Source: Bifidobacterium actinocoloniiforme DSM 22766 (GTDB lineage: Bacteria; Actinomycetota; Actinomycetes; Actinomycetales; Bifidobacteriaceae). Taken from it: 64,000 nt of DNA. Below the pieces are notes generated by a model. It worked only from the letters and a program-made list of their open reading frames with translations, ran no database searches and had not been told where the DNA came from. Of the stretch, positions 30,235-63,777 are shown piece by piece; position 1 is the first letter of the stretch, and every line of letters starts with the position of its first letter. The position numbers and the translations under genes were made by a program. The stretch lies in the NCBI RefSeq assembly GCF_001263395.1, contig NZ_CP011786.1, positions 1,426,001 through 1,490,000 of the forward strand. Reading direction: 5' to 3'.

Positions 30235-30311
30235 TGTTTGTTGGCTCCCGGGAAACCATCTGTGCGCGAGCCCCCCCCCCCTCGCTTTGCCAGCGTTTGG
30301 GAAGAGACGGA

Positions 30312-30985: not shown

Positions 30986-31774
30986 ATGGCTGGCGCGAAC
31001 CCACAGGGGGATGGAGGGCGCAAAAACCGGTCCCGGGCCAAGCACGGAGCGCGGGGCTCGGCCTTGGGCACCTTGTCGGTGGCACTCATCCTGGCGCTCG
31101 TGGGATACATGTTAGCGGTCAACGTGCGCGTCAACCGCACAGTGACCACCAGTTCGGACACCACTGGACTGTTGGAGGAGCGCGAGGGCAAGGTGCGCGA
31201 GCTGCGGCGCGACATCAACCAGATGAGCTCGCAGATCGACGCCTTGAAGAATTTCACCAACGGGCAAGACGTGTCCAAGGTGAGCGAGGACGCGGGATCG
31301 GGCACTGTGCTCAAGGCCGTGCGCGGCCCGGGCGTAAGCGTGACCTTGGATGACTCGCCCCTGTGGCAGCAGAAGGTGGATGCCACCGGTTCCGTGCCCA
31401 ATATCAACGATTACGTGATCCACCAGCAGGATATCGAAGCCGTGGTCAACGCTTTGTGGGCGGGGGGCGCTGAATCCATGCAGATCCAGGACCAGCGCGT
31501 GCTGCCGACCACAGCTGTGCGCTGCGTGGGCAACGTCCTCCTCCTGCATGGGCGCAAGTACTCGCCCCCGTTCACCGTGCAGGCGATCGGCCCGGTGGGT
31601 AAGATGACCGCGGCCCTGGATGATTCGCCTTCGGTGGGGATATACAAGGAATACGTGGCAACCTTAGGGTTAGGTTGGAAGCTGGAACGTTCGGACAAAC
31701 TGGAGTTCCCCCAGGCCACCGCCGTGCTCCAGCCTCTTCAGTACGCCACCGTTGATGAGAAAGCGCAGCAATGA
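30986..31774 (+). CDS. DUF881 membrane-anchored protein
   Basis: This 262-residue protein has a basic N-terminus, one membrane helix (about 33-53, LGTLSVALILALVGYMLAVNV), then a coiled-coil stretch (LLEEREGKVRELRRDINQMSSQIDALKNF). The DUF881 domain follows (GPGVSVTLDDSP and VIHQQDIEAVVNALWAGGAESMQIQDQRV). The family is widespread near division genes in Gram-positive bacteria and is thought to work in the cell envelope, but its activity is not established. GAAAGGGAACC precedes the ATG. Its stop overlaps the sortase ATG by the ATGA sequence, so both are translated together. Confidence 0.9.
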   Translation: MAGANPQGDGGRKNRSRAKHGARGSALGTLSVALILALVGYMLAVNVRVNRTVTTSSDTTGLLEEREGKVRELRRDINQMSSQIDALKNFTNGQDVSKVSEDAGSGTVLKAVRGPGVSVTLDDSPLWQQKVDATGSVPNINDYVIHQQDIEAVVNALWAGGAESMQIQDQRVLPTTAVRCVGNVLLLHGRKYSPPFTVQAIGPVGKMTAALDDSPSVGIYKEYVATLGLGWKLERSDKLEFPQATAVLQPLQYATVDEKAQQ

Positions 31775-32898
31775 ATCAAGACCCTTCAGTCACAAGCAGG
31801 AACCTGTCGCGTCAATCCGCCCGCGAACGGCGGCAGAGCGGGCTGTCAAAGGCGGCGGGCATAGCCGCCGAGGTGTTGGCCACTCTGGCCGTCCTGTGCG
31901 CCCTATACATCGCTTGGCAGCTCTGGTGGACTGGTGTACAGTCCGAGCACGCGCAGATTCAGGCCAGGCAAGCGTCGTCTTGGTCCGCACCCGCCTCCGG
32001 TAAGGGCGGCGCGGAGCGTATCGCGCCCAAGCAGGAGGGGGAGCCCCCGGTCCAGCCGCAGAGCGCTCAGAGGGGGGAGCTGATCGCCCAGCTTTACGTG
32101 CCGCGCTTTGGCACCACCTGGGACCGTAACGTGGTGGAAGGCACCTCTGCGGACCTGCTGGCCTACGGAGGCATTGGCCATTACACGCAGACTCAGATGC
32201 CCGGGCAGAAGGGCAATTTCGCGCTCGCCGGGCACCGGGCCGGTTACGGTGAGCCTTTCTCCAGCGTGGACAAGCTTCAAGAGGGCGACCCGATTATCGT
32301 GCGTACCAAGGATTACTGGTACGTGTACCACTACACCAGCAAGAAAGTCGTGGAACCCGGGGAGGTGAGCGTGATCGCGGCCAATCCTGAGCATCCGGAC
32401 GAGGCCGCCACGAAACGGATGATCACGCTGACCACTTGCGAGCCCAAGTACGCGACCGCCGCCCACCGTTGGATCAGCTGGGGCGAGTTGAACTACTGGG
32501 CCAAGGTCTCCGACGGCGTGCCCCAGGAGCTGGCCTCCAAGAGCAACGGGGGCGTGGTCTTCGAGAATGAGCACCAGGGGGGGGCGCTGGCCCGTTTGGG
32601 CTCCCTCCTGCCGGTCATCACCGTCCTCTTGCTGATGTACATCATCATCTACCTGGCGGCCCTGGTCGCCTGGCGCTACCCCAAGCTGCGAGCCATATCC
32701 GACGGCCGTGAGCCTAAGCCCTACCTGTCCTTCTATGGTTGGCTCAGCCGGCATCAGGCGGGCATCACGCCCGTGCGGTGGGTGCTGATGGCCTTGCTGG
32801 CCCTGATCGCGGTGTGCGCCATGCTTGAGTGGGTGTTCCCCCGGATGGCGGCCAACATACCCTTCATGCGGGCCATATCCAATTACCCGTCCGTATAG
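31771..32898 (+). CDS. Class E sortase
   Basis: This 375-residue membrane-bound transpeptidase attaches surface proteins to the cell wall. The N-terminal helix (about 25-50) anchors it. The catalytic triad is clear: His in FALAGHRAG (near 154), Cys in the class E signature TLTTCEP (near 223) and Arg in AAHRWISWG (near 234). Two further membrane segments follow the catalytic domain (about 270-300 and 330-355), which is a common layout in actinobacterial class E enzymes. It overlaps the DUF881 gene by 4 bp. A terminator follows its stop. Class E sortases usually recognise LAxTG-type signals. Confidence 0.93.
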   Translation: MNQDPSVTSRNLSRQSARERRQSGLSKAAGIAAEVLATLAVLCALYIAWQLWWTGVQSEHAQIQARQASSWSAPASGKGGAERIAPKQEGEPPVQPQSAQRGELIAQLYVPRFGTTWDRNVVEGTSADLLAYGGIGHYTQTQMPGQKGNFALAGHRAGYGEPFSSVDKLQEGDPIIVRTKDYWYVYHYTSKKVVEPGEVSVIAANPEHPDEAATKRMITLTTCEPKYATAAHRWISWGELNYWAKVSDGVPQELASKSNGGVVFENEHQGGALARLGSLLPVITVLLLMYIIIYLAALVAWRYPKLRAISDGREPKPYLSFYGWLSRHQAGITPVRWVLMALLALIAVCAMLEWVFPRMAANIPFMRAISNYPSV

Positions 32899-49578: not shown

Positions 49579-52545
49579 CTACTTGTTGAGCACCTTTTCC
49601 GGGTCTGCGTCGAAGGTCTCGACGCAGCCGGGGCTGCAGAAGTAGTAGGTCTTGCCTTGGTAGTCGCGGGTGGCGGCGGCCGTTGTGGGATCGATGCTCA
49701 TGCCGCAGACCGGGTCGGTGACCTTGGTGTTCTCTGCCATATCGGCACTTCCTTTCGGTTGATTTGCATTCCTTACATTCATGGTCCCACCGTTTGCGGC
49801 GGGTGGGCGCCGGACCAGGGCCTTGAGGGCGGGCATGTCGACCGGTTTGGGGTCGCGTACGGGCCGGGCTTGGAGCGGGGTGACGCGCAGGCGGTTGGCG
49901 TTCAACACCACCGAAAGCGAGGAGAAGGCCATTGCAGCGCCGGCGATCATCGGGTTCAGCAGGAGGCCGATGAAGGGGTAAAGGACGCCAGCGGCGATTG
50001 GAATGCCCAAGCCGTTGTATCCGAAGGCGAACCAGAGGTTTTCATGGATGTCGCGCATGGCCGCGCCGGACAGGTCGATCGCTGTCACCGCGCTCTGGAG
50101 GTCGCCCGACACCAGGGTGATGTCGGCGGACTCGATCGCCACGTCGGTGCCGGTGCCGATGGCCATGCCCAGGTCGGCTTGGGCCAGTGCGGGCGCGTCG
50201 TTGATGCCGTCGCCGATCATGGCCACGGTGTGCCCCTGCCTTTGGAGGGCCTTGACGATCGTGGCCTTGTCTTCGGGGCGGACTTGGGAGACCACGCGCT
50301 CCACGCCCACCTCCCGCCCCACGGCTTGAGCGGTGCCTGCGCCGTCGCCCGTGAGCATGACGGCCGCGATCCGCCTGTCCTTGAAGGCTTGGATGGCCTT
50401 GGCGGAGCTGGGCTTGACCTTGTCGGACACGGCTAGAACGCCGGCGAAGCGGCCGTCGACTGCCACGTAGACCGTGGTCTTGCCTTGGGCGGCCCATCGC
50501 TGGGCGCTCATCAGTGCAGGGTCGTCCCCGGCGGGCAGGTCGATGCCCCGCTCGTCCAAAAGTGCCTTGCTGCCGACCAGGACCCCGCTCTGGCGGCCTT
50601 CACCGCCGTCGTGGACGCTTGACTTGTCCACATCTGCTTCAGCCGATCTTGACTTCGCGGGTTCAGAGGTAGCCGAGCTGGATTGGAGGGAAACCAGCGC
50701 GTCCACGCCAGCGCCGGTCAGGGAAGAGAAAGACAAGACTGGCGGCAGTCGCAGCCCCTGCGCCTTCGCCCCGTCCACGATGGCTAGGGCAAGGGGGTGC
50801 TCGGAGTCCCCCTCTGCCGAGGCGGCCAAGGCCAACAGCTCCTTTCGGCTCCAGCCGATCGCGGTGGCGGTATCGGTCAGTTGGGGCTTGCCGACAGTGA
50901 TTGTGCCGGTCTTGTCGAGCACGATCACGTCAACTTTCTGCGCCTTCTGCAGGGCGTCGGCCGACCGGTAGAGCACGCCGGACCGGGCGCCGCGTCCCGT
51001 CCCGATCGTCACCGAGAGCGGCGTGGCCAGGCCCAGCGCGCAGGGGCAGGCGATGACCAGCACCGAGACCGCGGCAACGATGCCATTGACTCCTTTGGGC
51101 AGGGGCCCAAAGAGCCACCAGACCACGAAGGTCCAGATGGCCACCAGCATCACGCCGGGCACGAAGATCGAGGCGATTTTGTCGGCCAGCTTCTGGATGG
51201 GGGCCTTGGAGGATTGGGCTGCCTTGACCAAGCGGATGATCTGTGCCAGCACGGTGTCCTGCCCCACCTGCGTGGCGCGGTAGCGCAGGGAGCCGGTCGA
51301 GTTGATCGTCGCGCCGACTACCTGATCGCCCGCCTTTTTGAGCACGGGCATGGGCTCGCCGGTCACCATCGACTCATCCACAGAGGAGGAGCCGGAGATC
51401 ACGGTGCCGTCCACCGGCAGCTTCTCGCCCGGGTGAACCAACACGATGTCTCCGACAGCCACATCGTCCACGTCGATTTGCTCCACTGTTTCGCCCCCCT
51501 GCTCCCCGGTCCGCAGCACCGAGGCGGTTTTGGGCTTCAAGCCCACGAGGGAACGGATGGCGTCGCCGGTGCCCCGCCGGGCCCGGGCTTCGAAGACCTG
51601 GCCCAGGAGCATCAGCGTGATGATTGTGCCCACGGCCTCATAGTAGGGGTTGCGGGCGGAAGGCGGCAGGATGCCGGGGGTGAGCGTGACGACCAGGGAG
51701 TAGGCGAAGGCGGTCATCGTGCCCAGGGCCACTAGGGAGTTCATCTCCGGGGCGCGGTGGGCCAGGGCCAACCAACCCACCCGTTGGATGGGCCAGCCTG
51801 AATAGAACATGACCGGCAGAATCAGGGCCAGCTGGGTCCAGGGGTTCATCAAGAGGGCCGGCATGCGGATGAACATGCCGAACATGGCGGCGGTGAGGAC
51901 CGGAAGGGTGAAGACCAGGGCCACGACGAAGCGGGCGGTCAGGGAGCGAATCTCCTTGTTGCGCTCGAGGTCTTCGTCCTCCGGGTCCCCTTGGGCCAGG
52001 ACCTTGCCGTGGGCCGGATGGGCGGGCTCGCTCTTGGGCGTGGTCGTGGCCATGCTATGGGCGGATCGTGTGTCCGCCGGTGAGACCTGGTTCGGTTGCT
52101 CTGGCTTCAGCTCGGCGCTCGCCGGGCTCCGCTGGTTCCGGGAATCCTGGGCGTCGCGCTCGCTGGAGTCGCTCTGGCTGGGCAGGGCCCGGAGCATCCC
52201 GTGGAGCATGTTCATGCCGCAGGCGAACGGGTAATCGCCGGGCTTGGGCAGGGTCAAATCCAGGCTGGTGGTCTTGAAGGCGGGCAGCATCTGATCGATG
52301 CCCAAATCGGGGAAGATCACGTGCGAGGAGCATTCGCCGGACTCCTGCCGGTCGAAGATCAGGCGGACCGGCCGGTTGGCGTCCACCTGGACAAGCTGGG
52401 GGGAGTAGCCGCCCTTGACCGCTATGCGAATCGTCTGCACTCCGCCTTCGTTGGAGGCCTGGACCGCCTTTTTGGGCGCGAAGAAGAACCAGATGATGGC
52501 GATGGTGACCAGGGCCGCTGCAGCGACGACGATTGCGTTGAGCAA
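49579..52545 (-). CDS. copA: Copper P-type ATPase with cupredoxin and YHS domains
   Basis: This 988-residue copper pump has an unusual set of end domains. A membrane helix (about 1-25) leads into a cupredoxin-like domain (about 40-135; [42 protein letters not shown]). A Ser/Glu/Pro linker follows, then the P1B ATPase core: eight helices, TGEPMP, CPC in IACPCALGL (near 498), DKTGTIT (near 542), SEHPLA and [14 protein letters not shown]-terminal YHS domain (about 945-988; [17 protein letters not shown]) ends the protein. No HMA domain is present. The TTG at 52545 is chosen as start because AAGGAG stands 7 bases ahead and the region upstream is the CsoR operator; the same frame runs open to 52800. 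Confidence 0.93.
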
Positions 52546-52579
52546 GGCGTGCTCCTTTCCAAGGGAACTATCTCCACCA

Positions 52580-52598
52580 TATACCCCCGGGGGGTATA
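52580..52598. promoter_or_regulatory. CsoR operator between copA and csoR
   Basis: TATACCCCCGGGGGGTATA is a G/C-tract palindrome of the classical CsoR type (TAC then C/G tracts then GTA). It lies in the 157-bp gap between the divergent copA and csoR genes, 35 bp before the copA start, and overlaps possible -10 boxes in both directions. Confidence 0.85.
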
Positions 52599-52702
52599 GT
52601 GGCAAAAGCTCCACTGCGGGCAGGGCCGACGTGGTGCTGCAGAGGCTCGGGGTGGTCCAGGCCCTGGCCTGGGTCCGACGCGAACGTGATGAGGAGGATG
52701 CA

Positions 52703-52984
52703 ATGGCGGGATACATGAACGATAAACAGCGGGTCATCACGCGCCTGCGCCGCATCGAAGGGCAAGTGCGGGCCATCGAATCAATGGTGGAATCGGACAC
52801 CTACTGCATCGACGTGCTCACCCAGATTGCGGCCTCCACTTCCGCCCTGAAGTCGGTGGCCCTGAACATCTTGGACGACCATATGAACCACTGCGTGCGC
52901 GAGGCGGCGCAAAAAGGCGGCGACGAGGCTGATGGAAAGATGCAAGAGGCCTCGGACGCCATAGCCCGCCTGGTCCGCTCCTGA
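52703..52984 (+). CDS. csoR: Copper-sensing repressor CsoR
   Basis: This 93-residue all-helical DNA-binding protein is of the CsoR/RcnR family. The copper site residues are present in the family spacing: Cys in [10 protein letters not shown] (near 36) and His-x3-Cys in DHMNHCVRE (near 61 and 65). [20 protein letters not shown]-like sequence in the first helix (here [13 protein letters not shown]) is the DNA-contacting signature. GAGGAGG precedes the ATG at 52703. Binding Cu(I) releases it from the nearby palindrome and opens copA and its own gene. Confidence 0.95.
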
Positions 52985-53170: not shown

Positions 53171-54937
53171 ATGGCTAAACATGCTCCTCATGGCGTGCAT
53201 GAGGCGAAGCATGTCCCGAGCAAGTCGCGCAAGCGCAAACATGGTGCCACGCGGGATATTCCCCAGCATGAGGAAGAGCCGAAAGCCTTAACGACGCCGG
53301 AGCAGGCGGGTCAAGTCGACAAAGCAAGCCAGGCCGCTCAGTCCGGCTGCACCCCCAGAATGGTTTCATCCTTGCCTGTGGTGGCGCCCCCGGACGCCCT
53401 GTCCGCTGTTGTTCCTGGAGTTACTCCTGCGTTGGCGGCTACCGGGTCCGCTTCCTCCGCGCCCGGCTCTTACCCCGATTTTTCCGGCCAAGCGGTTACG
53501 GCATCCGCCAATCCCGCCTCAGCCCCTTCTTTTGGCGCTCCCGACTTTCAGCCCGAATTCGACGCAGGAGCAGCCGCCTCCGTCGGACCCACTGGCGAAT
53601 CACCGGCCCCTTGGCAGCCGCAAGCATCCTGGACACCGGAGCCGGCGTCCACTGCGATTCCTTCGCTCACGGCCCCCGAGCTGACGAACTTGCCGGACGA
53701 CCTGGCCTTTTCGATGCCGGCATCCCCGCAAGCGCCTCTGAGGGCTCCGCTCGCTTCCCCCATGCCACCCGACCTGGCCCCGGGCCCCACTGAGTCAGCA
53801 GCCGCAGCCCCGCCGTCCCTTGATCGGTCATTCGAGGCGCGATACGACGCCCAGCGCGCAGCGCTTTCGCGACCATTCCCCGACTCCCCAGCCCCCGCTC
53901 CTGCCGGAGATTCGCCTACTCCCTCTTCGTCCGTCCCTGCTTCCGCGGCACCTTCCGCTTCCGCAGCCTCCATGTCGGTCCCGGGCGCGCGCCCGCCGGT
54001 CAGCTCCGGCTTAAGCAAAGCCTCCCACCGGGCAGGTCGGCGTCCGAAGATGGACTGGTCGGTGCTGGTGGCGGTGGCGCTTGTCTGCATGTTCGCATTG
54101 GGCTATGCCCTCTACAGCGGCAGCATGTTCATGCAGAACCACAACGACCACGAATCCACTCAATCGGTAGATAAGTACGACCAGGCGGTGCGCAAGCTCA
54201 GCCCCAAGCAAATCAAGGCGATCCGTGCCGACATCAGGCGCTACGATGGCAACCTGCGCGCCGGAGGACCCTTGGACCCCTTCTCCGGCAAACCAGTCAA
54301 TTCCCAGGAAGCTGGCAAGGTGGAGGACTACACCAAGATTCTAGGCAAGGTCAGCCCGGACATGGTGGGCTACCTGAGCGTGCCCAAGGCCAAGTTCGCC
54401 GGTCCGATCTACTACGGCGACGTCAACAGCACGCTCACCCGAGGGGTGGGCTACCTGGACCAGACCGCCATCCCCGCGGACGTCAAGGGCACGCGCTCGG
54501 TCTTGTATGGACACACTGGTTTGGATGATATGCACGTGTTCGACGACCTGTACCGGGTGCGCAAGGGCGATACCTTCTCCGTGCGCGTACTGGATGCCAC
54601 CTACCATTACAAGGTCTCCGACATCAGCACGGTCAAGCCTACCGAGACCGACTCCCTGCGTCCCCAGAAGGACAAGACGATCGTGACCCTGCTGACCTGC
54701 ACGCCCAAGGGCGTCAACGACCACCGGCTCTTGGTCTCTGGGCAGTTGACCGATGTGACCACCGACAAGCCCAAGCTCAATCACACGATTTCGCCCCTGA
54801 TGCTGATCGTCACTGCCATACCGCTGGCCCTGGCGGTGGTGGGCGCGGCTTATGTGGCCCTGCGCCGCCAGCAGCTGCGCGGGGGCTCCAGCGCTGGCTT
54901 GAAACCGGGCGGCGGCCAAGGTTTGGGGGCGGTATGA
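53171..54937 (+). CDS. Class C pilus-type sortase with long disordered N-terminal arm
   Basis: This 588-residue protein has a cytoplasmic N-terminal arm of about 290 residues dominated by Ala, Pro, Ser and Thr. A membrane helix (about 295-320, WSVLVAVALVCMFALGYALYS) and a class C sortase domain follow. The DPF lid motif (GGPLDPFSGKPV) marks the pilin-polymerising class. The triad is His in YGHTGLDD (near 448), Cys in TLLTCTPKG (near 509) and Arg in NDHRLLVSG (near 519). A second membrane helix (about 545-567) follows. Class C sortases build covalent pili by joining LPxTG pilins through a pilin-motif Lys. AAGG precedes the ATG at 53171. The next sortase gene overlaps by 4 bp. The long arm is unusual. 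Confidence 0.9.
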   Translation: MAKHAPHGVHEAKHVPSKSRKRKHGATRDIPQHEEEPKALTTPEQAGQVDKASQAAQSGCTPRMVSSLPVVAPPDALSAVVPGVTPALAATGSASSAPGSYPDFSGQAVTASANPASAPSFGAPDFQPEFDAGAAASVGPTGESPAPWQPQASWTPEPASTAIPSLTAPELTNLPDDLAFSMPASPQAPLRAPLASPMPPDLAPGPTESAAAAPPSLDRSFEARYDAQRAALSRPFPDSPAPAPAGDSPTPSSSVPASAAPSASAASMSVPGARPPVSSGLSKASHRAGRRPKMDWSVLVAVALVCMFALGYALYSGSMFMQNHNDHESTQSVDKYDQAVRKLSPKQIKAIRADIRRYDGNLRAGGPLDPFSGKPVNSQEAGKVEDYTKILGKVSPDMVGYLSVPKAKFAGPIYYGDVNSTLTRGVGYLDQTAIPADVKGTRSVLYGHTGLDDMHVFDDLYRVRKGDTFSVRVLDATYHYKVSDISTVKPTETDSLRPQKDKTIVTLLTCTPKGVNDHRLLVSGQLTDVTTDKPKLNHTISPLMLIVTAIPLALAVVGAAYVALRRQQLRGGSSAGLKPGGGQGLGAV

Positions 54938-56124
54938 GCGAGCATAGCGGCAAGGGGCGTGCGGGCGCCAGCAAGGACCAGTCCAGGCTGAGGTCAAGTC
55001 GCGCCCAGGGGGCGCGGCGGGAGGTGGTGAAACCCGGTCGGCCCGGGCACGCTGGTAGGAGCATCAAGTGGCGGTCCATGGTCGACTTGCTGATTTTCCT
55101 GATCGGGCTGGGCATCTTCATGTACCCGCTGGTGGCCGCCTATGTCAATTACCAGTCCGCTTCCAGCGCGATTGACAACTACGACTCGATCGTCGAGCGC
55201 CTGACCCCGGCTGAAAAAGCGGAGATGTGGGCGCAGGCCAAGCGCTACGACGAGGAGTTGGGCAAGCCTACCCTGCGAGACCCCTTTAAGTATCACAAGC
55301 TCAAGTACCCTGTCAACCTCTACAACCGCACGCTCAACGTGGACGGCAAGGGCATGATGGCGTACGTGGAGATTCCGAAAATCTCGGTCAAGCTCCCTGT
55401 CTACCACGGCACCAGCGACGACGTCTTGCTCAAGGGCACCGGCCACATCGCCACGACCCACATTCCGACCGATAACAAGACCTTGCACGGTGTGATCACC
55501 GGCCACACGGGCGCGGTGGGTCATATCTTCTTCGACAACCTGACGCAGATGAAGAAGGGCGATGTCTTCCAGGTGCGCGTCCTGGACCACCACTTGTCTT
55601 ACAAAATCGACCAGATTCGTGTGATCATGCCCAACGACGTGCACAACCTGCAGCCGGTGGAGGGCCGCAACTACGTGACCCTGCTGACGTGCACCCCCTA
55701 CGGCATCAACTCCCACCGTCTGATTGTGCGCGGCCGTTATATAGGTGACAACATCCCCGGCACCCCGCCTCAGGGGGCGCCTAAGTGGGTGCTCTGGATC
55801 TTCCTGCTGGCCCTGCTGATCACCGCGCTCCTGATGCATCTGGTCACTCGGAAGCGGCGGCAGTGCCGAATCGCTATCGCCTTAATCCATCGCAATTACG
55901 GGCTGGGCCCGGGCGGCGATCCAGGCTTGGCTGGCGGCTTGCCAGGGCCTGGCTCCCCAGGGTCGGCGTTCATCGGTCCGGCCGGCGTCGCCCCGGCTGG
56001 TGGCCAAATGCCCAGGGCCCCGGCCGGCCCCGCATCACTGGCTAGATCATCCTTGCCTGCGGGAGGGTGGGACGATGCTTCCGGGCCGGGAGCCCCTGGT
56101 TCGCGCATGGACCAGGGCTTCTGA
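54934..56124 (+). CDS. Class C pilus-type sortase
   Basis: This 396-residue sortase starts within the stop of the preceding one (ATGA overlap). A basic cytoplasmic N-terminus (about 1-45) precedes a membrane helix (about 48-70). The catalytic domain contains the DPF lid motif (TLRDPFKYHKL) and the triad: His in ITGHTGAVG (near 191), Cys in TLLTCTPYG (near 253) and Arg in NSHRLIVRG (near 262). A second membrane helix (about 285-305) leads to a Gly/Pro-rich tail of about 80 residues. It matches class C enzymes that polymerise or terminate pili. The closest visible substrate is the LPLTG pilin encoded 5.5 kb downstream. Confidence 0.93.
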   Translation: MSEHSGKGRAGASKDQSRLRSSRAQGARREVVKPGRPGHAGRSIKWRSMVDLLIFLIGLGIFMYPLVAAYVNYQSASSAIDNYDSIVERLTPAEKAEMWAQAKRYDEELGKPTLRDPFKYHKLKYPVNLYNRTLNVDGKGMMAYVEIPKISVKLPVYHGTSDDVLLKGTGHIATTHIPTDNKTLHGVITGHTGAVGHIFFDNLTQMKKGDVFQVRVLDHHLSYKIDQIRVIMPNDVHNLQPVEGRNYVTLLTCTPYGINSHRLIVRGRYIGDNIPGTPPQGAPKWVLWIFLLALLITALLMHLVTRKRRQCRIAIALIHRNYGLGPGGDPGLAGGLPGPGSPGSAFIGPAGVAPAGGQMPRAPAGPASLARSSLPAGGWDDASGPGAPGSRMDQGF

Positions 56125-56230
56125 CCGGGCTCAGGCCGCACGGGCCGCTATAGTATGGTGAGATATATCTGGGTGGGCGGGCCGGTAGTCCTGCCCGCTG
56201 CCGCTTCGTGGGGCAAGGGGTGTAGTTCAG

Positions 56231-57358
56231 ATGATATGGAACGAGCAAACGGGCCGGGAGGGGGAACCAACTGTGACCGGCGCGGAAGGCGGGCAAGAGG
56301 AGCGCAGGGCCGCCGATGCGTTCGTGGCCCGTGCCGCCGCCGTCGCTTTTGCCGTCAACCGTCACCATCCCGGTTCGGGCCGACGCAGGTCCAGCGATGG
56401 TGAGGAACAGCCTTCGTATCTGGAAGTGCCCAGGCTCAAGCTCCAGCAGGTCGATGCGGAGCCGCAGCAAGAGTCCCAGTGGTCCGGCGCTGTCCCTGAT
56501 GATTCCAACCCGGCTCTCGGCCTGTATGGCTCCTACCCCGAGACTCAGCGGCCTGCGTCGCCCGGCACTGTGCCTCGTGTGAGCCCGGAGCCCTACGCCC
56601 CGGCTGTTCCTCCCGACCTGGATGTTCCTGTGACAGCTGCGCCGCTGAACCCAGCGTCAACCCAGCTGACGTTGACGGAAGACAGCCCTTGGCGGCCCAG
56701 CCCCGTTCCGGTGGTTCCCCCAACGCCTACTGTTTCCCCCGTCCGCGCGCCCTCCTTCCCCAGGCAGGCATACAACCCTTACAGCGCTCAGAGTGTTCAG
56801 AGCGCGCCTGTGTCCCCCGTTCAGCCCTCCTTCGGCGCTACGGCCCCGCTGGCCCCGTCTTCGCGGTCCATCCCGGAGCAGTCTGCGGGCCAAGCTCAGA
56901 CACCTGTGTCGGCGATCAATTCCGCGTATTCGTCTATGGAAGCCCCTCAAACCATGCCATTCACTTCATCCACTCCGTCTGATTCTCCTTTGGGTAGTCA
57001 GACCGCCGCCATCGGTTCCGGCGCCCCAGCCCAGCGGCAGAGGCAAAAGCCGGAGCAAGAGCGCAATCAGTCAGCCGTCTCCAAGCCTTCAGGCCGCAAG
57101 CGGGGCGGCGCCAGCGTGCCCAAGGGCCGGCATACGCCCGTCTGGAGCCGGAAGCGCCCCAGCGACATCAAGGCCTTGCGAGCGAGGGAGAGGCGCCTGA
57201 CCGTGCTCTGGTGGATTCTGGCTGCCCTGGCCCTCTTCTTCGCTTGGGCGTCCTTCGGCCTCATGATGCGAATCGGCTTCCTGCCTACTTTCGACCTGGG
57301 CTACTCCTGGTTCGACTCCCACATCGCCTTCTTCTTCGGCATCAGTCCCAGCAATTAG
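56231..57358 (+). CDS. Pro/Ser-rich protein with C-terminal membrane helix, unknown function
   Basis: I do not recognise this 375-residue protein. Most of it (about 60-320) is low-complexity Pro, Ser, Ala, Gln and Val. The C-terminal 60 residues hold a basic patch (KALRARERR) and one strong membrane helix (LTVLWWILAALALFFAWASFGLMM), then an aromatic tail (FFFGISPSN). It has no signal peptide and no LPxTG motif, so the long N-terminal part is probably cytoplasmic, like the arm of the first sortase. It begins 107 bp after the second class C sortase on the same strand, and a hairpin follows. Linkage to the sortases by position suggests a role in pilus or surface assembly. Confidence 0.6.
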   Translation: MIWNEQTGREGEPTVTGAEGGQEERRAADAFVARAAAVAFAVNRHHPGSGRRRSSDGEEQPSYLEVPRLKLQQVDAEPQQESQWSGAVPDDSNPALGLYGSYPETQRPASPGTVPRVSPEPYAPAVPPDLDVPVTAAPLNPASTQLTLTEDSPWRPSPVPVVPPTPTVSPVRAPSFPRQAYNPYSAQSVQSAPVSPVQPSFGATAPLAPSSRSIPEQSAGQAQTPVSAINSAYSSMEAPQTMPFTSSTPSDSPLGSQTAAIGSGAPAQRQRQKPEQERNQSAVSKPSGRKRGGASVPKGRHTPVWSRKRPSDIKALRARERRLTVLWWILAALALFFAWASFGLMMRIGFLPTFDLGYSWFDSHIAFFFGISPSN

Positions 57359-57421: not shown

Positions 57422-57439
57422 GCCCGCCTCGGCGAAGCC

Positions 57440-57621
57440 TCTACTCGCAAGTGAAGGACGCGGTGCAGAGGCAGCTTGGCCATACGTCGGCGGCGATGAC
57501 GTTGGACGTGTACGCTGACCTCTTCGATGACGACCTGGATTCGGTCGGCGAGTCCATGAATGACCTGCTGTTGGAAAGTGCGCTCAAAGTGCGCTCAAAA
57601 ACAATTAGGAGCGCTGCGTAG
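57440..57621 (+). pseudogene. Tyrosine integrase C-terminal remnant
   Basis: The reading KDAVQRQLGHTSAAMTLDVYADLFDDDLDSV is the last part of a phage-type tyrosine recombinase: LGH with the conserved His and the catalytic Tyr in TLDVYADLF. The N-terminal and core regions, including the first catalytic Arg, are missing, and sequence upstream in this frame is the shadow of the preceding gene and hairpin. It ends 49 bp from the 3' end of tRNA-Leu, the usual site for integrase genes, so it marks a lost integrative element. Confidence 0.75.
57578..57599 (+). repeat. Tandem 11-bp repeat in the integrase remnant
   Basis: GTGCGCTCAAA occurs twice head to tail, 71 bp from the 3' end of tRNA-Leu. It could be a duplicated scar or recombinase arm site. 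Confidence 0.6.
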
Positions 57622-57669
57622 TTTGCCGCAATCCTAATGATTCCAGGGGTTTTTGTAGGGGGGAAAGAG

Positions 57670-57752
57670 TGCGAACGGAGGGAGTTGAACCCTCACGAGC
57701 ATGAGCTCACTGCCACCTGAAGACAGCGCGTCTACCATTCCGCCACGTTCGC
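57670..57752 (-). tRNA. tRNA-Leu (CAG)
   Basis: A class II tRNA with a variable arm is seen on the minus strand: acceptor GCGAACG with CGTTCGC, anticodon stem CTGTC/GGCAG around TTCAGGT (anticodon CAG), a long variable arm (GAGCTCATGCTC), and T-loop TTCAACT. The 3' end faces the integrase remnant. Confidence 0.95.
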
Positions 57753-61304: not shown

Positions 61305-61659
61305 TTTCAGTGTGGTGACAGGCGGCGGAAGGGCTGCGGGCCGTTGCGGCCAACGATTCTGACCTCTGCGGTTCGCGGGGCGATCAATCCGGGTGGGAAT
61401 CCGGTTGGTCGCCCCCCCCTTCTTTTCTCGGCGACGGCAAGTGAGGATCGGGTTGATTCTGGGCGAAGTGACAAGGCTGGCATTTGGGGCTCCGTTGCGA
61501 AGCTGCTAGTATTGCACACAGATTGTCAGTGTAGGCATGCTCGCTTCCCAGAGTGGTAGCGGCGTGCTTCATTCTGGCATCCCTGGGTAGAGGCTTTGCG
61601 AGTAAGGGCTTCAGTGGGGACCAGGGTATGTGGGGTTGAAAGTAGGGGAAAGGTGTGGT
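61305..61659 (+). other. Gap between htrA and pilin gene
   Basis: The 355-bp gap holds no convincing gene. AAAGG at 61650-61654 serves the pilin start. No perfect terminator stem was found after htrA, and promoter boxes for the pilin are not clear, so read-through from htrA cannot be excluded. Confidence 0.5.
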
Positions 61660-63777
61660 ATGCGCAAGCATTCACTGAGGATGTGGACCAACGGCAGGGC
61701 CTGGTTGGTGGCGATCCTGGCGTTTGCCGTGGCTCTGGCGATGGTGGTTGCGGTTATGCCGTCAGCGCATGCTGATACATCCACATACACAACAGATGAT
61801 GACTTCCTGCCTGGTGACACGCCCGATTCAACTCATCCAGCGAAGCTGGTCCTTACCAAGCTGCTCACCTCGAAGCCGGGATTCACCGCAACGGGATCCA
61901 TCCAAGACAAGACCAACTCCAATATGCCCGATAACCAGGTTGGCAAGGGCGTGCCTTTCAAGCTGACCCAGATTACTCCGCCGGGCGGCGCGCATCCCGG
62001 AGACATGAAACCCAATCAGGAGAACACCTTCGTTCGCCGCACGGAGTATGTGGGCATGACCGATGATTCTGGTGTTATCCAGAATGGCGGCAGCGGCATA
62101 GGTCACTGGCACACAAGAAGCGCGGGAGGTTATACGGACACGACTAGCTTGGCCTCCTTCCCTCATGGCTATTACCTCTTGGAGGAGGTCACAGGGCCAG
62201 GCAGCGGCAACCCTTATACCGATCCGTCCAATCCCTTGTTCAACCCCCGATACACTCCAGTCGAGAAGGCGATTTACGATTTGCCTTATCGGTCAACCAA
62301 CACCACCACCCCAAGCCCTGGTGGCACCCCCACTCCGGTTGAGGGCTTCGTCTATAACCTTCATATCTATCCCAAGAACATCAATGACGCGCAGCTGATC
62401 AAGCAAGTCGTCTCGGTCAAGAAACCCAACGGGGCATCCCGCGACAAGAATGTCGCCCAAGTCGGTGACACGGTCACGTGGAAGATAACCCAGAAGCTGT
62501 ACGACGATAATCACACCACGAGCCCGAATGGTGATGGCAGGCTTGATTTAAGCGAAATACCGGATACCGCCTCGACCGCTGACGCCCTCGCGCTGGTGGA
62601 TGTATTACCAACCTCGTTGGACCTCGTCTCGGGCAGCGTCCACGTCGCGCTTTCCTGGACGGATAATAACGTTGCCCATCAACCTGTTACGACTGGATTG
62701 CCATCCTTCGGCGATATCGGACGTTCGAATATGAGTCGCCCTGTGGCAGGGCATTCCCAAGAGTCGATGGTGGATCCCTCCATGAGGCCTGATACGCAGA
62801 AGCAGAATCGCCTGTTGAGCTTCGAGGTAAAAAATGGATCCTCTCTCAAGACCCTTTACGGGAATTACGTGTCCGGCAACACATACACTGATATTCAAGT
62901 AGCCATAACCTATGACACTAAAGTGACCGCCGAGGGCGACGGGGACGCCGGACCGATGGGGCTCTTAACGAATGTAGCTGTTTCGGACAACTTGGATAAT
63001 TCAGGCTCAAACAGCAAACCCTTCAGCGTCGCGGCTTCCGTGGCTTCGCCTGGTTTCCAGTTCGCGAAGACCAATAAGGCCGAAGCGTCCCATGTCCCTC
63101 CGATTACACTGGCCGGCGTTCCTGGCGCGGTTTTCCGGCTAACCGACCCCTCCGACCGAACTCAGTTCCTGTGCGACGATGCGGCCTTCCACACCGATAC
63201 GCAAATCAACTCCTTTGGTGGCCGTGTCAAAGCCATCGAAGCCACGTCCAACGAGAACGGTATCGTCACTTTCACTGGCATCCCGATCGTCGATGATACG
63301 GCCAATGCGGTTTACAGCGATGCATCCAAGTTGAAGTTCGGCATGGTGGAGTACAAGAAACCCCAGTACTGCACCGCTAACTGCAACACGCCCTCCCCGA
63401 CGATGACCGACTATCTTGCCCCGTCGGCTAACTTCAAGACCGTTGATTTCTCTAGTCTGAGCGGTAAGCCGATCGCCGACCTGCAAGACACGGAGGTCAA
63501 GCCGGACGTAAGCAAGCTGGATTTCAAGGATTATAAGACTCCAAGCATGCCTACAGGCACCACGTCGACATTCAAGAATATGCGCGGTGACGTGATTACC
63601 CTGGGCCTGACTAACTGGCAGCAGGATCAAACTGATCCGGCTAAGGTCGGAGCGTTGCCTCTGACTGGCGGCCGGGGCATCCTCCTGATGCTGATCATTG
63701 GCCTAATCATCATGGTCATTGGTCTGGTTGTCTCCAAGCAGCGAGAACGCCGCATGGCCGCCAGGGGAGCTTACTAG
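61660..63777 (+). CDS. LPLTG-anchored major pilin (SpaA/FimA type)
   Basis: This 705-residue surface protein is built to be a pilus shaft subunit. A signal peptide (WLVAILAFAVALAMVVAVMPSAHA) is followed by an N-terminal domain with an E-box-like segment (HGYYLLEEVTGP). The pilin motif is NLHIYPKN (near 244), whose Lys would accept the sortase bond. A D2-type fimbrial domain follows (VKKPNGASRDKNVAQVGDTVTWKI), then a C-terminal CnaB-like domain with MVEYKKP. The sorting signal is LPLTG, then a membrane helix and KQRERR. AAAGG precedes the ATG at 61660. Class C sortases 5.5 kb upstream are the probable polymerases. A terminator follows. Confidence 0.92.
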   Translation: MRKHSLRMWTNGRAWLVAILAFAVALAMVVAVMPSAHADTSTYTTDDDFLPGDTPDSTHPAKLVLTKLLTSKPGFTATGSIQDKTNSNMPDNQVGKGVPFKLTQITPPGGAHPGDMKPNQENTFVRRTEYVGMTDDSGVIQNGGSGIGHWHTRSAGGYTDTTSLASFPHGYYLLEEVTGPGSGNPYTDPSNPLFNPRYTPVEKAIYDLPYRSTNTTTPSPGGTPTPVEGFVYNLHIYPKNINDAQLIKQVVSVKKPNGASRDKNVAQVGDTVTWKITQKLYDDNHTTSPNGDGRLDLSEIPDTASTADALALVDVLPTSLDLVSGSVHVALSWTDNNVAHQPVTTGLPSFGDIGRSNMSRPVAGHSQESMVDPSMRPDTQKQNRLLSFEVKNGSSLKTLYGNYVSGNTYTDIQVAITYDTKVTAEGDGDAGPMGLLTNVAVSDNLDNSGSNSKPFSVAASVASPGFQFAKTNKAEASHVPPITLAGVPGAVFRLTDPSDRTQFLCDDAAFHTDTQINSFGGRVKAIEATSNENGIVTFTGIPIVDDTANAVYSDASKLKFGMVEYKKPQYCTANCNTPSPTMTDYLAPSANFKTVDFSSLSGKPIADLQDTEVKPDVSKLDFKDYKTPSMPTGTTSTFKNMRGDVITLGLTNWQQDQTDPAKVGALPLTGGRGILLMLIIGLIIMVIGLVVSKQRERRMAARGAY

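Follow-up and report, generated by a model that had tools for sequence, protein, structure and literature searches.

Two genes for class C sortases in Bifidobacterium actinocoloniiforme DSM 22766 are followed on the same strand by a gene, ORF3, whose product is a long, largely disordered membrane protein, which raises the question of what this third protein has to do with the two enzymes. The three genes were described in an earlier note on this DNA, and the coordinates given there proved to be correct. With Bifidobacterium xylocopae, Bombiscardovia coagulans, B. indicum and the B. asteroides group as its relatives, the organism belongs to the insect-type bifidobacteria. In the following, the window refers to the whole stretch of 64,000 nucleotides that was analysed.

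Sortase genes of the window

The sortase genes, all on the forward strand as is ORF3, and their features are:

53171-54937, forward strand: srt1, class C sortase of 588 amino acids
53171-54049, forward strand: disordered cytoplasmic arm of srt1, residues 1-293
Domains of srt1: sortase domain at residues 402-526, between helices at 296-314 and 544-562
54934-56124, forward strand: srt2, class C sortase of 396 amino acids
Features of srt2: predicted helices at residues 53-71 and 286-304, Gly/Ala/Pro-rich cytoplasmic tail
56231-57358, forward strand: ORF3
31771-32898, forward strand: third sortase of the genome, outside the three-gene module

srt1 and srt2 overlap by 4 bp (ATGA), and a gap of 106 bp separates srt2 from ORF3. 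With the NCBIfam profile for class C sortases (NF033745), which has a cut-off of 160 bits, srt1 scored 181.7 bits and srt2 240.3 bits. The characteristic motifs are intact in both proteins, namely the DPF lid (starting at residue 369 in srt1 and 116 in srt2), GHTG with the histidine (447 and 190), TLLTC with the cysteine (506 and 249) and HR with the arginine (517 and 260), and hydropathy predicts two flanking membrane helices in each. In all these features they agree with the known class C family (NF033745 / PF04203), and judged by them srt1 and srt2 are ordinary class C sortases; the earlier note had likewise described both as class C sortases with the DPF lid and intact catalytic residues. 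The additional arm of about 290 Ala/Pro/Ser-rich residues that had been noted in srt1 was also recovered: residues 1-293 consist of 20% A, 17% P and 14% S, and the arm is present in all four nearest relatives that carry the gene, with a variable length and a conserved start, MA[K/R]HA. A frameshift or assembly artefact, which was considered for both the srt1 arm and ORF3, was rejected because four other species have the arms and a separate ORF3 as well, with the starts conserved.

The third sortase is the only other one on the single contig of 1.83 Mb and, judged by its gene context, is probably a housekeeping (class E-like) enzyme. Apart from tRNA, no structured RNA or terminator was found between the genes, where terminator-like sites occur at chance expectation, and no long homopolymer that could serve as a slippage tract was found in the three-gene module (53171-57358). 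Elsewhere in the window, the intergenic DNA that follows a rhomboid-like gene contains a C11 tract at 30271. To the left of the sortase genes lies a conserved neighbour, a copper-type P-type ATPase (region 49579-52984) that begins with a cupredoxin-like domain and ends with a YHS domain; its gene is divergent from an ORF for a metal-sensitive (CsoR-like) repressor ending at 52984.

Conserved and variable parts of ORF3

ORF3 encodes 375 amino acids, for which no profile match was found in Pfam, NCBIfam or PHROGs, in line with the earlier view of a candidate undescribed module. It consists of two parts:

56231-57097, forward strand: arm of ORF3, residues 1-289, disordered and Pro/Ser/Ala/Gln-rich, predicted to be cytoplasmic, 22-31% identical to relatives
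57098-57358, forward strand: conserved module of ORF3, residues 290-375, with a basic juxtamembrane stretch, a helix at 323-341 and the outer tail GFLPTFDLGYSWFDSHIAFFFGI

ORF3 is not a protein built in the same way as srt1, as which the earlier note had described it. The part that is conserved lies in the C-terminal ~86 residues, which comprise the membrane helix and a short outer tail of about 30 residues ending LPxFDLGYSWFDxHIxxFFGI. Across homologues, what is conserved is a single helix and, after it, LPxxDLGYxWF(D/N)xxI...F at the extreme C-terminus. According to hydropathy and charge distribution, seven K/R residues precede the helix and one follows it, and this asymmetry suggests an N-in/C-out orientation, in which the arm is cytoplasmic and the tail lies across the membrane, where the sortase domains are also predicted to be.

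In comparison with the four relatives, of which Bifidobacterium xylocopae is the closest for ORF3, residues 290-375 are 76-84% identical, a range near that of the catalytic part of srt2 (residues 46-308, 79-86%), whereas the arms reach 22-31% in ORF3 and 10-30% in srt1. The start codon of ORF3 is conserved in the relatives, as is a short VPxL-like motif early in the arm. The disordered arms are apparently genuine, yet by their sequences they look like tolerated, fast-changing spacers. These values bear on the function proposed in the earlier note, according to which the arms may concentrate the sortases at pilus foci, through contacts between the arms of srt1 and ORF3 in the cytoplasm or through binding to the Sec translocon. 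Each of the five species in the lineage of the window does have the arms, and the srt1 start and the VPxL-like motif would fit a shared binding function; however, the arms differ widely in length and their likeness is explained by composition alone. Since they are the least conserved portion of both proteins, are short in the indicum type of the gene and nearly absent in an 86-aa form from Eggerthellaceae (both described below), we consider it quite unlikely that the arms are the working part.

Fused and separate forms in Bifidobacteriaceae

When the relatives were searched with ORF3, the matches clustered in the last ~60-85 residues and often lay within open frames of about 490-550 codons, and a search for class C sortases placed sortases in the same frames of the same genomes. 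In one genome, for example, a sortase at 272489-273136 and an ORF3-like segment at 273401-273568 share one frame of 500 codons (G001:C1). Reading of such loci gave the order arm, helix 1, sortase, helix 2, linker, helix 3 and tail for the fused polypeptide. The helix and tail of ORF3 align to this C-terminal extension with 45-56% identity, and srt2, which ends without a copy of the tail of its own, is the orthologue of the sortase that bears the fused third-helix module in the relatives. Compared with a class C sortase as known, the module therefore adds a third helix and an outer tail, which are part of the enzyme in most relatives and encoded by a separate gene in the window.

Three states were found among 23 srt2-type sortases. 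The module is fused in 15 of them, which belong to the asteroides group, two Aeriscardovia MAGs, two Bifidobacterium genomes and a second cluster in the genomes G007 and G018. In five species, namely that of the window, B. xylocopae, Bombiscardovia coagulans, G007 and G018, it is encoded with a long arm by a gene that directly follows the sortase gene, at a distance of 85-116 bp. In the remaining three (B. indicum, G026 and an uncultured Bifidobacterium MAG) it is a short overlapping gene, where the overlap with the sortase gene is about 100-155 bp for the longest open frames and 8-11 bp from the likely start codons; in B. indicum and a related MAG the free module measures 128-141 aa, with a short cytoplasmic part. 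A split module gene is always the next gene after an srt2-type sortase. Read-through from srt2 into ORF3 by frameshifting was rejected for the window because of the 106-bp gap and the conserved start of ORF3. In every genome of the family with a strong match, the module is fused to or adjoins a class C sortase, and an ORF3-type gene without a sortase was not found in the family, so that the earlier assignment of ORF3 to the sortases stands.

An AlphaFold2 model of a fused homologue from an Aeriscardovia MAG (mean pLDDT 65.9) shows a sortase-like fold whose strands are surrounded by three long helices; in the tail, the pLDDT is 30-50 by block and the modelled position is unreliable. The second cluster in G007 (L046:8000-10549) and G018 (L047:8447-11113) is a tandem of two sortases that both carry a fused tail, that of the srt1-type sortase being strongly diverged.

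Phylogenetic tree and history of the split

The phylogenetic tree was constructed from 66 sequences, comprising srt2-type sortases, other class C sortases and sortases of Coriobacteriia. All 23 srt2-type sortases of the family form one clade (98/93), each of them with a module, and srt2 of the window is placed inside it together with fused forms. The group with separate genes (100/99) and the group with overlapping genes (100/99) lie apart from each other, with fused forms beside and outside them, and the overlapping-gene group is the sister of the fused asteroides sortases (100/99). As a consequence of this placement, the state must have changed at least twice, and on this tree a fission together with a re-fusion costs as much as two fissions. 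The 31 other class C sortases in the tree form a clade of their own and lack the module, so that pilus polymerisation as such does not depend on it.

Interpretation of ORF3 as a part of the sortase

Since most relatives carry the module fused to the second sortase, ORF3 is probably a non-catalytic part of srt2. We therefore favour, with a probability of roughly 0.7, the reading that ORF3 is the detached C-terminal membrane domain of srt2, i.e., a non-catalytic subunit of the pilus sortase that came to be encoded apart after gene fission. The basis of this reading is homology, the repeated alternation of fused and separate forms, constant linkage, conservation and predicted topology. The probable ancestor would have been one polypeptide with a cytoplasmic arm, helix 1, an outer sortase domain, helix 2, a short cytoplasmic linker, helix 3 and an outer tail. 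In the lineage of the window, a break in the gene would have separated helix 2 from helix 3, and long low-complexity tails would then have arisen at each of the ends so formed. Helix 3 and the tail most likely re-associate with srt2 in the membrane, packing with its helices, and this would place the tail at the outer membrane surface near the active site, where it might dock the sorting signal of the pilin, hold the acyl intermediate or shield the enzyme. A subunit of this kind may help to dock or retain the membrane-held pilin/sortase intermediate during pilus assembly, and srt1, srt2 and ORF3 together would form the pilus-polymerising sortase set of this bifidobacterium.

An alternative is that the module guards the stability or processing of the sortase, by shielding membrane helices from signal peptidase or quality-control proteolysis, and takes no part in substrate docking. 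A helix with a short outer tail beside the sortase has a plausible geometry for shielding a cleavage site, and a possible analogue is SafA, a sortase-associated factor of Actinomyces, a small membrane protein that works with a sortase. The resemblance serves as a lead only, the partner of SafA is the housekeeping sortase, and the other class C sortases examined do without the module; a guarding function therefore appears unlikely.

Class C sortases are commonly regarded as enzymes with two helices that need no partner. In Bifidobacteriaceae and, as shown below, again in Coriobacteriia, the module is found in some genomes within a sortase and in others as a gene of its own, and this "Rosetta-stone" pattern is strong evidence that the pilus sortase has a non-catalytic subunit; the module probably marks an undescribed pilus-sortase domain. 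No description of the third-helix/tail domain, of its gene fission or of its recurrence across classes was found in the profile libraries or in the open-access literature searched, which is no proof of absence. Read as a detached domain, ORF3 is no longer just a disordered protein of unknown kind: its partner can be predicted, and it becomes a clean test object, in which the target for mutation is reduced to 86 residues.

Occurrence outside Bifidobacteriaceae

The alternation of fused and separate forms is repeated in Coriobacteriia. One locus (L134) encodes a fused protein of 415 aa, and another, from an Eggerthellaceae MAG (L097), has two class C sortase genes followed by a gene for 86 aa with little beyond the module, which reproduces the gene order of the window; in the tree, the two sortases in question form a sister pair (100/95). 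The module is rare: in profile searches it was found in 2 of 296 genomes of the class Coriobacteriia, 2 of 291 of a clostridial class and 3 of 200 and 1 of 150 in two clostridial families, counts that include the genomes which supplied the queries. Among 396 genomes of the phylum, it was found only in the window's own genome.

A pattern and tblastn scan of genome contigs gave 22 loci with a related tail (L098-L119), all in MAGs that are clostridial or similar; the set is biased towards the motif by a seed pattern demanding DLGY-type letters. Many of these proteins begin with a segment that weakly resembles sigma-70 region 2, continue with a disordered linker and a single helix, and end with the tail. 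At two loci (L105 and L110) the gene for such a sigma-like tail protein lies 9-12 bp upstream of a sortase gene, which is followed by that of a very long surface protein; the one checked, in L110, is a SpaA-repeat adhesin with 16 SpaA-domain matches. This combination would suit a sensor, in which the outer peptide reports the state of the sortase or pilin across the membrane. For ORF3 we regard this as very unlikely, because the bifidobacterial forms have no regulatory domain, the sigma-70 region 2 matches are weak and below the curated cut-offs, and 20 of the 22 clostridial loci do not adjoin a sortase. The latter also qualifies the result obtained within the family, where no ORF3-type gene occurs without a sortase, and points to a possible role of the tail at the membrane that is not confined to sortases. 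From the reading of the loci, the next gene in L117 is signal-peptidase-like, and several tail proteins of Lachnospiraceae MAGs sit between RNase G-like and rplU/rpmA/obgE-like genes.

A broader proposal is that the helix and the DLGYSWF tail form a portable, undescribed sortase-partner module of Actinomycetota and Clostridia, which is fused to a sortase, present as a separate subunit or carried by a membrane protein of sigma-factor-like type, through which gene expression would follow the state of the sortase machinery; we consider a module of this scope improbable.

Candidate pilins and the neighbouring tRNA region

The window contains one candidate pilin substrate of the sortases:

61630-63777, forward strand: pilin of 715 aa, SpaH/EbpB-type-like, with LPLTG, candidate substrate

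This protein scores below the cut-off of the SpaH/EbpB family. Its gene starts 4.3 kb past ORF3, with tRNA-Leu, an oppositely oriented tgt and htrA in between, and is kept at the same place in B. xylocopae (53% identity). It is the one pilin in view, as the earlier note had stated, but other candidate substrates exist in the genome. A major and a minor pilin are encoded about 150 kb from the sortases with no sortase nearby (G000:C1:1325583-1328719, L143:3584-6720); the major one has 669 aa, LPLTG and a score above the SpaH/EbpB cut-off, the minor one 283 aa and LAATG, and they are 27% and 35% identical to the pilin and minor pilin of B. polysaccharolyticum. A pilin-like LPLTG protein of 797 aa lies at 100036-102429 of the same genome. 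srt1 and srt2 are, by the gene content of the genome, the only class C sortases available for these dispersed pilins.

Known sortase-dependent pilus clusters of Bifidobacterium, such as those of B. breve UCC2003 and others, consist of a major pilin, a minor pilin and a class C sortase, and the pili of B. breve are switched by slippage in an intragenic G-tract (PMC9187656). The asteroides-type relatives have exactly this order, with the homologous pilin and minor pilin directly before the fused sortase. The genome of the window likewise encodes SpaH/EbpB-type pilins, but its sortases lie apart from them and lack the pilin genes in the same cluster that are usual for class C systems. ORF3 has stayed linked to srt2 while the pilins are dispersed, which argues that it acts with the enzyme and not with a particular pilin.

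An intragenic G-tract like that of B. breve was not found in the pilin of the window. A C8 tract at 61412 is located about 210 bp upstream of the pilin start, outside the reading frame, and is absent from the three relatives checked. Between ORF3 and the pilin, the C-terminal remnant of a tyrosine integrase (57424-57621, forward strand, LGHTSAAMTLDVYADLF; PHROG integrase, E 1.7e-6) adjoins the 3' end of tRNA-Leu(CAG) at 57669-57752. In G018 (L031/L138), the same interval holds more than 20 kb of extra genes, including one for an LPLTG protein of 1600 aa.
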